This document shows positions 27,030 through 29,225 of a stretch of DNA of 61,895 nt, in pieces. Numbering within the stretch: position 1 is the first letter of the stretch; every line of letters starts with the position of its first letter. The stretch spans positions 1-61,895 of the forward strand of contig MEFP01000024.1 in NCBI GenBank assembly GCA_001725155.1, written 5' to 3'. This DNA is from Lysobacteraceae bacterium SCN 69-320. GTDB taxonomy: Bacteria > Pseudomonadota > Gammaproteobacteria > Xanthomonadales > Rhodanobacteraceae. Under the pieces are notes generated by a model, which did no database searches, was not told where the DNA came from, and saw only the letters and a list, made by a program, of their open reading frames with translations. A program made the position numbers and the translations under genes.

Positions 27030-27692
27030 ATGACCTTGCTGCCCCGCCTCGTCCTCATCGCCGCTGCCGCCCTGGCGGCCGGTCCGCTGGCCGCCGCCAC
27101 CAAGACCGCCTATCGCTGCACCGACGAGCACGGCGCGATCGCGTTCCAGGACAAGCCCTGTCGCGGCGACCAGAAGAGCCAGTCGTTCGAGTACGAACCC
27201 GCGCCGCCACCGCCGCCGGCCGATGCGCAGGAGCCGGTGCCGGAGGAGCCGACCGCCGCCGTCCCGCCTCCGCCCGAGCCGAGCAGCCTGCCGGCACCGC
27301 CGCCGCCGCGACCGCCGGCGCCGACCCTGTTCCGCTGCGTGCGCGCCGACAACGACAAGGTCTATTACAGCGAGACCGGCGAGACCCCGCCCTACCGGGT
27401 GCCGGCCGGCATACTCGGCCTGCCCGGCAGCCGGCCGGGAACGCCCGAGCACATGTCGGCACCGGAGGCCAACCGGCCCCCGGTATCCGAACCCGGCGGC
27501 GCCGACGCGCTCGCGGCGACCTATGTCGAAGTGCGCGACCGCTGCGAACGGCTGTCGCCGGCAGAAGCCTGCCGCGCCCTGCGCGCGCAGCTCGACGACA
27601 ACCTCTCGCGCCAACGCAACGTCGGCCAGGCGGAACGCACGGGCCTGAGCAGCGAGGCGCGCGTGCTCGCCGACAAGCTTGCCGGCTGCTGA
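27030..27692 (+). CDS. DUF4124 domain secreted protein with proline-rich linker
   Basis: A 220-residue protein with a signal peptide (about 1-24). Residues 27-46 hold the DUF4124 motif (YRCTDEHGAIAFQDKPC), common in periplasmic proteins of beta- and gammaproteobacteria. A proline/alanine/glutamate linker covers 56-100, followed by FRCVRADNDKVYYSETG, which resembles a second copy of the motif. The C-terminal part has three cysteines (DRCERL, EACRAL and the final Cys). Function unknown. The DnaA-box region begins just after its stop. Confidence 0.8.
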   Translation: MTLLPRLVLIAAAALAAGPLAAATKTAYRCTDEHGAIAFQDKPCRGDQKSQSFEYEPAPPPPPADAQEPVPEEPTAAVPPPPEPSSLPAPPPPRPPAPTLFRCVRADNDKVYYSETGETPPYRVPAGILGLPGSRPGTPEHMSAPEANRPPVSEPGGADALAATYVEVRDRCERLSPAEACRALRAQLDDNLSRQRNVGQAERTGLSSEARVLADKLAGC

Positions 27693-27699
27693 CGCAAAT

Positions 27700-28340
27700 T
27701 CGCGCAAACCGGCCGGATGCGAGCCGCAGCGCGGCCTGCGGCGATTCATCCACAGGCTTTTCCGCGCGCTTGTCCACAGCGGCTGTGGACAAGTCACAAC
27801 GACATTTATTTTTGTATATTTAAATATAAATAAACACCCGATCCGGCGACACTGAGCAAGATTTGCGCAAACCGGGCAGAGCCCGCACCGTTGCTCGCGC
27901 TGCGGCGCCTGTGCACAGACTTGTCACCACGCTTGTCCACAGCCCCTGTGGACAGCGCGCAGCCCGCTGGCGATTTCTTGCGCAAACCGGGCGGAAGCCA
28001 ACTGGCGCAAGGCCTGCAGCAATTCATCCACAGGCTTGTTCCGGGTAGTTTCCACAGCCGCTGTGGATAGACGGCGACGCGCTTCATCCACAGGCGCGCG
28101 CAGCACCTCGCGCCGCCGCAGCGATCAGGAATTGCGCAAAGCGGGCGCAGGCCGCGCCGTTGCTCGCGCTGCCGCGCCTGTGCACAGACTTGTCACCATG
28201 CTTGTCCACAGGCTCTGTGGATAGCGCAGACGGCCCTGGCGATTTCTTGCGCAAAGTGGGCGCGAGCCAGGCGGCCCAAGGCCTGCAGCGATTCATCCAC
28301 AGACTTGTGCGCGCGGTTTCCACAGACGCTGTGGACAGAG
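27700..28340. other. Origin-like region: DnaA-box cluster with AT-rich element
   Basis: Non-coding. I count 14 nonamers close to the DnaA box: TTGTCCACA at 27770, 27933, 28202 and reversed at 27784; TCATCCACA at 27746, 28024, 28084, 28293; CTATCCACA reversed at 28062 and 28216; CTGTCCACA reversed at 27947 and 28330; GTTTCCACA at 28048 and 28316. Many are paired face to face a few bases apart. An AT-rich stretch at 27803-27834 with a single G could serve as unwinding element. This is the layout of a bacterial oriC or a DnaA-titration locus. dnaA, dnaN, rpmH and gidA are not in the window, so the assignment rests on the boxes alone. Confidence 0.65.
27858..28340. repeat. 269-bp direct repeat within the DnaA-box region
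   Basis: The palindrome TTGCGCAA occurs at 27863, 27978, 28132 and 28247. The steps are 115, 154 and 115 bp, so 27863 to 28132 and 27978 to 28247 are both exactly 269 bp. Flanking sequence repeats too: GTTGCTCGCGCTG, CCTGTGCACAGACTTGTCACCA, CTGGCGATTTCTTGCGCAAA and AAGGCCTGCAGC each occur twice at this distance. The unit is present nearly twice (from about 27858 and about 28127). Confidence 0.8.
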
Positions 28341-28363
28341 ACCGCGATGCGATGTCCGCCGAC

Positions 28364-28590
28364 CGCGGGGTGCGGCGAGCGCAGCGAACCGCGACGTCGA
28401 GGTGTCCCTGTCCCGACAACTCCCTGTCGCAGGGATCGCACCCGGCACCGGGGGTTGCGGCACGCTCGCCGCAGACAGGCTTTGCTCGAGGCCGCTGGCG
28501 ATGCCAGGGCCGCGACATCGCTTCGATCGGGGCCGTTCGCGACCGGAAGACCGCGATGTTGCGGTTCGCTGCGCCCACCGCAATCTACGG
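28364..28590. repeat. Inverted pair of dispersed GCGAGCGCAGCGAACCGC-type repeats
   Basis: GGTGCGGCGAGCGCAGCGAA... at 28364-28394 recurs in reverse orientation at 28557-28590 (TTGCGGTTCGCTGCGCCCAC...), 162 bp apart. Sequences of this type are scattered through many Lysobacterales and pseudomonad genomes. Apart from this pair, the region between the DnaA boxes and ogt (28341-28712) shows no gene. Confidence 0.65.
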
Positions 28591-28712
28591 CGCGTTTTCA
28601 CCGATGCTGTGGACGGATGTCGCAGTCGGATCGACTCGCTCGTGCGAGGCATCAGCGCGCCGGCAATGGCCAGATGACTCGGCCGGTCAAAGCGAGAGGA
28701 CGAACCCGCCGA

Positions 28713-29225
28713 TTACGGCTGCAGCTCCAGCGGCGGCCGCGGCGCGTAACGGCGTTCGTGGTCGAGCAGCCAGCGCTTGGTCGGCAGGCCGCCGCCGAAG
28801 CCGGTCAGGTTGCCGTTGCTGCCGATCACACGGTGGCAGGGCACGATGATCGGCAGCGGATTGGCGCCGTTGGCGGCGCCGACGGCGCGGCTCGCGTTGG
28901 GCCGGTCGAGCCGGCGCGCGAGTTCGCCGTAGCTGATCGTCTCGCCGAGCGGAATCTCGCCGAGCGCATCCCAGACTTCGTGCTGGAACGGCGTGCCCTG
29001 GGCGTCGCGGGCGAAGTCCAGGGTCAGGCAGTCGCCGGCGAAATACGCCCGCAGCTGCGCCGTCGCTTCGGCCAGCCGCGCTGCGTCGCGCGGCAGGCCG
29101 ACCTCGGGCATGACCACGCGGCCGTTGTGCGGAAACTCGATGTTGCGCACGCCGCGCGGGCTTGCGATCAGCAGCAGCGGGCCGATCGGCGTATCGACGA
29201 CGTCATAGGCCAGATCCTCGTACAT
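28713..29225 (-). CDS. ogt: Methylated-DNA-[protein]-cysteine S-methyltransferase
   Basis: A 170-residue DNA repair protein that takes methyl groups from O6-methylguanine onto Cys130 in VPCHRVIG. Also seen: GETISYGELARRLDRPNASRAVG, with the DNA-binding helix and arginine finger, and NLTGFGGGLPTKRWLL. Length fits Ogt. It starts 21 bp after the alkA-like gene stops on the same strand, so both lesions (O6-methylguanine and 3-methyladenine) are handled by one likely operon. Confidence 0.95.
   Translation of the reverse strand: MYEDLAYDVVDTPIGPLLLIASPRGVRNIEFPHNGRVVMPEVGLPRDAARLAEATAQLRAYFAGDCLTLDFARDAQGTPFQHEVWDALGEIPLGETISYGELARRLDRPNASRAVGAANGANPLPIIVPCHRVIGSNGNLTGFGGGLPTKRWLLDHERRYAPRPPLELQP

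Follow-up and report, generated by a model that had tools for sequence, protein, structure and literature searches.

Tandem DnaA-box units beside a DUF4124-like gene as a candidate off-origin DnaA-control site in a gammaproteobacterial family

The described systems closest to the locus analysed here are the DnaA-reactivating sites DARS1 and DARS2 of Escherichia coli, together with datA of the same organism. DARS1 is described as having no need of a protein factor (PMC4585315), and DARS2 as being activated by IHF and Fis, with a core that E. coli is said to share with related gammaproteobacteria (PMC4245941). DARS sites are stated to have been identified in a number of gammaproteobacteria (PMC4451416), and in Bacillus subtilis and Streptomyces coelicolor untimely initiation is reported to be repressed by clusters of DnaA boxes outside oriC (PMC4585315). 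Among the matches listed in the open-access literature, taken by their titles and abstract openings, no paper dealt with DARS or DnaA-box-cluster sites in the present family.

Here we consider a cluster of DnaA boxes on a contig of Lysobacteraceae bacterium SCN 69-320; the window, below, is the whole stretch of 61,895 nucleotides that was analysed. We estimate a probability of roughly 85% that the locus, as judged from its sequence and that of its relatives, is an off-origin DnaA-control site of the DARS/datA class, and the array may help to time DNA replication. What appears to be new is a DARS-like spacing with an additional box, in tandem and at a genomic place of its own.

Units of the array and their spacing

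Positions 27700-28340 hold 12 matches to TTRTCCACA at up to one mismatch and 20 at up to two. An earlier note on this DNA had counted 14 DnaA-box-like nonamers there, a figure that lies in between, and the cluster is real. When 27693-28720 was shuffled 300 times by mononucleotides, the mean was 0.2 boxes and the maximum 2 at up to one mismatch; the entire window has 25 box matches against 6.7 expected, the highest shuffle giving 13. The boxes are arranged as five tandem units (starts at 27746, 27909, 28024, 28178 and 28293), each with a plus-strand box B1, a second plus-strand box B2 23-24 bp on and an inverted minus-strand box B3 14 bp past B2. The close face-to-face pairs that had also been noticed correspond to this B2/B3 pair, whose starts lie 14 bp apart in all five units, with B2 carrying up to two mismatches. 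Another box, 12 bp ahead of B2, departs from the consensus at two positions in units 2 and 4 and at three in unit 1. The array region is a tandem repeat (186 nt in two copies, 84%, 269 bp apart), and the motif TTGCGCAAA occurs once in each of the four spacers between units. All five matches to TCCACAGNNNCTGTGGA in the genome fall inside the array, where exact palindromic pairs are thus densest. The 32-bp stretch with a single G is present as claimed, and it also has a single C; no second stretch as AT-rich was found elsewhere within the window. As a separate observation, the DARS2 gap of E. coli also contains a single copy of TTGCGCAA, which may be compared with the spacer motif.

The features of the locus are given below. 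The DARS geometry mentioned there consists of boxes at positions +0/-14/-26, with mismatches summed, and is taken from the E. coli DARS1 and DARS2 cores.

27030..27692, plus strand: left gene, DUF4124-like, 220 aa; its 3' end abuts the array; syntenic in relatives
27746..27792: unit 1; boxes at 27746(+), 27758(+, weak), 27770(+) and 27784(-); DARS geometry on the minus strand, 3 mismatches in total
27805..27836: AT-rich stretch by base composition, 30 of 32 positions A/T, one G and one C
27863..27871, 27978-27986, 28132-28140 and 28247-28255: TTGCGCAAA spacer motif
27909..27955: unit 2; boxes at 27909(+), 27921(+), 27933(+) and 27947(-); DARS geometry, 3 mismatches in total
28024..28070: unit 3; boxes at 28024(+), 28048(+, two mismatches) and 28062(-); more than 6 mismatches in the DARS geometry
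28084..28092, plus strand: extra lone DnaA box TCATCCACA
28178..28224: unit 4; boxes at 28178(+), 28190(+), 28202(+) and 28216(-); DARS geometry, 3 mismatches in total
28293..28338: unit 5; boxes at 28293(+), 28316(+, two mismatches) and 28330(-); more than 6 mismatches in the DARS geometry
28713..29225, minus strand: right gene, 6-O-methylguanine DNA methyltransferase (ogt-like; Pfam PF01035, E 9.2e-35), ending towards the array

The geometry was scanned over 200 kb of E. coli DNA picked to contain DARS1, DARS2, datA, oriC and dnaA; in this selection DARS1 (3 mismatches) and DARS2 (5) were the top two sites, with datA at 7, the region upstream of dnaA at 10 and oriC at 11. The window has three sites with a score of 3 and two with a score of 7, and none in between. 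The three best sites are units 1, 2 and 4, which tie with DARS1 and beat DARS2; three of the five units accordingly have the core spacing of a DARS, 14 bp face-to-face and then 12 bp. Among 512 geometries tried on the array, the best combined the 14-bp pair with a further box at 24 bp (4 sites) or 12 bp (3 sites). E. coli DnaA is described as favouring, in vivo, boxes separated by 2 or 3 bp (PMC11317965), which is the register of the array's 12-bp boxes. No IHF consensus at up to one mismatch occurs in 27693-28720, which argues against an IHF dependence of the DARS2 kind; E. coli DARS1 is also without such a consensus.

The same boxes could be read as a device for titration or for datA-like inactivation, in which the replicated array would bind much DnaA or promote its ATP hydrolysis and so delay re-initiation, the number of units tuning the sink. 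Many boxes in little space and a variable unit number are what this would lead one to expect. However, E. coli datA, at a geometry score of 7, is without the 14-bp face-to-face pair and has the exact IHF consensus that the array lacks, and titration as such would not require the fixed spacing of 14 and 12 bp. We regard this reading as the chief alternative to DARS-like reactivation, if rather unlikely, and an identity with datA was rejected on box spacing and on the IHF consensus. The earlier suggestion of a DnaA-titrating locus thus survives in so far as it places DnaA control away from the origin, although the spacing favours a DARS-type core over plain titration.

Flanking genes and conservation of the locus

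The left gene falls under the Pfam cut-off for DUF4124 (E 0.072), and its relative in G129 passes it (E 1.2e-7). The two flanking genes are convergent, so that no gene start or promoter to be regulated is expected in the gap. Neither the DUF4124-like nor the ogt-like gene belongs to the neighbourhoods of the E. coli sites, which are bioD-uvrB for DARS1 and rppH-mutH for DARS2.

The DUF4124-like protein was matched in 96 of 117 family genomes, and its 3' side was read at 91 of these matches (those in G048, G079, G105, G106 and G125 being left out, and the sequence of G005 stopping 63 bp past the gene). The 91 loci contain 80 units, distributed over 34 loci and 13 of 25 genera; the other 57 loci are without a unit, and none was found in the surveyed loci of genera g5, g6, g38 and g40. 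One or two units are present in 24 genomes and three to seven in ten, namely six of the same genus (G000, G001, G003, G004, G006 and G007) plus G041, G056, G108 and G129. The first plus-strand box starts 47-108 bp past the gene match in 29 of the 33 genomes having such a box. The spacing of the boxes is kept across genera, and the sequence surrounding them differs. On these comparisons the array locus is syntenic and old. Units of other genera depart in part from the DARS plan: B2 often matches poorly (2.5-3.0 mismatches on average in g8, g10, g14, g15, g17, g36 and g37), the box at 12 bp is weak (3.5-6.8 mismatches on average, by genus), and the strongest spacing is that of B1 and B3 at 37-38 bp, which is missing from the E. 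coli DARS cores.

Alternatively, the array might be a DnaA-dependent gene-control region or a functionless spreading repeat. DnaA is described as regulating genes in E. coli (PMC11317965), and both the repetitive nature of the array and the many genera without units would suit a spreading repeat. Promoter control was nevertheless rejected on account of the convergent flanking genes, and a spreading repeat does not sit well with a spacing that persists across genera despite differing sequence around the boxes. Both possibilities therefore appear improbable.

A scan of genome contigs for two palindromes starting 101-131 bp apart returned 13 contigs, four of which share the window's flanking genes (L131, L135, L136 and L141); in the other nine these genes were not found within the 8 kb examined. 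Of these nine, three from Dyella (L137, L140 and L143) have the array next to an accD-like gene, with a PAP2-like gene adjoining it as well in two cases, and three from Arenimonas (L133, L138 and L142) have it near a folP-like gene; all these gene names were assigned by eye from translations. G018 carries a perfect outer-box pair with a 28-bp gap (G018:C2:551071-551116) and, 117 bp away, another with a 27-bp gap (551188-551232), both on a different contig from its DUF4124 locus.

Position relative to dnaA and the origin

The earlier note had taken the cluster for a possible chromosomal origin in an unusual place and had stated that dnaA is not found beside it. The latter holds: the assembly comprises 30 contigs, with the window corresponding to contig C24 and dnaA located on a separate one, C15. 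The former was contradicted in a relative. Since the genome itself is a draft, the proposed skew minimum was sought in a complete genome from its genus, G004 (a single contig of 6,458,662 bp), by means of 40 GC-skew samples of 20 kb each. In this genome dnaA lies at 455.6 kb and the syntenic array at 1,350.0-1,350.8 kb, 895 kb away (0.139 of the genome). The skew is negative from 4.1 Mb round to 440-460 kb, apart from samples at 1 and 80 kb that are positive and samples at 290 and 330 kb that are near zero, and it is positive in all samples between 460 kb and 3.6 Mb. The switch coincides with dnaA, and no change of skew was seen among the 20-kb samples at the array (1.35 Mb). Contig 18 of G007 carries the array at 78 kb and dnaA at 877 kb. 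Its skew has mixed signs up to the 890-kb sample and is positive from 960 kb onwards (five samples); this noisier profile agrees only loosely with an origin at dnaA. The GC-skew profile of the window itself has no clear switch, and counts of KOPS-like motifs were too sparse for use.

Immediately 3' of dnaA, two perfect divergent boxes 34-35 bp apart are common to G000, G003, G004 and G129, and this two-box site is a plausible origin to judge from its boxes; the gene adjoining dnaA was called dnaN from its position. The proposal that the main origin has been relocated to the array could draw on the fact that the genome's exact palindromic pairs are densest there, but the skew switch of G004, 895 kb off, and the box pair kept beside dnaA in four relatives leave it with hardly any credibility, and it was dropped.

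The note had also raised the possibility of a second origin, which would fire rarely or under stress and be opened at the AT-rich stretch by unit 1. The boxes do adjoin such a stretch, and in five of seven arrays of the genus a 40-mer of at least 70% A/T is found just past unit 1; in six of the seven, the 40-mer with the highest A/T content begins 91-114 bp after the gene. However, G004 (0.60) and G007 (0.625) have only a weak form of the stretch, the arrays of other genera lack it (0.525-0.65 in G041, G056, G108 and G129), and the skew of G004 is unchanged at the array. What stands of this proposal is the AT-rich stretch in most arrays of the genus, which is why a backup origin was retained, highly improbable and little supported as it appears.

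The array is non-coding DNA and probably off the origin, with convergent genes on either side and 895 kb between it and dnaA in G004, as would suit an off-origin control site. In 15 genomes, some with rounded sizes, dnaA and the DUF4124 locus are separated by 0.030-0.202 of the genome. The E. coli sites lie at 0.101 (datA), 0.206 (DARS2) and 0.329 (DARS1) from oriC, so that the range is comparable to datA and DARS2, a likeness that is merely suggestive because the genomes are related. Closeness to the distance of datA may also be counted in favour of titration or datA-like inactivation. The locus lies upstream of dnaA in eight genomes and downstream in seven, as expected from inversions around the origin.

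A possible DARS-like mechanism and comparison with known systems

A second element of the family bears on the preferred reading of the array as a DnaA-control site. The exact 14-bp pair TTATCCACANNNNNTGTGGATAA is found in 108 of the 117 family genomes, once in 107 of them and twice in G096, and its reversed control pattern is absent from all 117. When gaps of 0-30 bp were allowed, the gap was 5 in 56 of 61 pairs (59 genomes). A third box at up to two mismatches lies 12 bp out in 10 of 11 loci (eight from the family and three from other families of the order), and none was found in these 11 loci at any other distance of 9-30 bp. The pair directly precedes a PriA-aligning gene in five family loci (L048, L050, L051, L056 and L058), and in L054 it precedes a piece of such a gene at a contig end. 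In the genome of the window, a single perfect pair is located on contig C3, about 3.3 kb before priA (positions 5333-5355 of L238, which is C3:131500-142500). In ten of 14 complete or nearly complete genomes, 6-14 kb separate the pair from the DUF4124 locus, and in the other four at least 23 kb; the distance of the pair to dnaA is 0.034-0.207 of the genome (14 genomes, some sizes rounded). In the wider class, the exact pair occurs in 84 of 185 genomes. Within genus g36 the exact-pattern pair is missing in several sampled genomes (e.g. G044, G088 and G100) and present in G062 and G074. A distant gammaproteobacterium, G312, has two perfect 14-bp pairs 401 bp apart (G312:C1:2379301 and 2379702), perhaps also in tandem.

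That the array reactivates DnaA in the manner of a DARS is the most likely of the readings, and one to which we would assign even odds. In favour of such a role are the geometry, which at up to 6 mismatches singles out DARS1 and DARS2 in the E. coli scan and only array sites in the window, and the convergent flanks, the synteny and the 14-bp pair with its 12-bp third box kept in the family. Against it speak units 3 and 5, which lie beyond 6 mismatches, the poor B2 or weak 12-bp box of other genera, the lack of an IHF consensus, the 57 of 91 loci without a unit, flanks unlike those of DARS1 and DARS2, and a side of dnaA that is not conserved. On the minus strand each unit has the layout of an extended DARS-type core: box I (+) is followed after 14 bp by box II (-) and, some 12 bp beyond that, by a weaker box III (-), and a fourth box (-) lies at 37-38 bp, counted from box I. 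If the array is DARS-like, DnaA-ADP remaining after initiation may bind the strong boxes, assemble through the 12-bp register and meet its face-to-face partner. This contact would cause release of ADP, whereupon apo-DnaA could reload ATP and active DnaA would be regenerated for the origin at dnaA; several units would provide a greater capacity. A site part-way along the replichore doubles some time after initiation, and would thus tie reactivation to the progress of replication.

It is tempting to speculate further, albeit at somewhat less than even odds, that the family controls DnaA by means of a near-universal single DARS core near priA and, linked to it, a companion beside the DUF4124-like gene that was amplified into tandem arrays on several occasions. 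This would imply that the number of tandem units (three to seven) sets the capacity for regenerating DnaA-ATP, as in an adjustable multi-core DARS. A core of strict spacing that occurs once in 107 of 117 genomes, taken together with a syntenic tandem companion, would show DnaA reactivation to be a broader and more flexible control, and the natural series of one to seven units makes the effect of dosage testable. There is also a caution here for origin predictors, since the densest DnaA-box cluster in a genome need not be oriC.

With oriC the array has in common clustered boxes adjoining an AT-rich stretch, but it lies away from dnaA and, in G004, away from the skew switch as well. The clusters of B. 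subtilis and S. coelicolor near oriC are likewise found outside oriC; they belong to other phyla, and the likeness is one of description. Like the array, datA is a non-coding cluster of DnaA boxes, with 0.101 of the genome between it and oriC; it differs in lacking the 14-bp face-to-face pair and in having an exact IHF consensus. DARS2, in the rppH-mutH gap, shares the 14/12 spacing, and its distance from oriC is 0.206 of the genome as compared with 0.139 for the array of G004; it is activated by IHF and Fis, an IHF consensus at up to one mismatch being absent from the array, and its flanking genes are different. DARS1, in the bioD-uvrB gap, has boxes face-to-face 14 bp apart with a third 12 bp on, at the same 3 mismatches as three units of the window. 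It is, however, a single core as compared with five units, without a further box at 37-38 bp, set between other genes and 0.329 of the genome from oriC.
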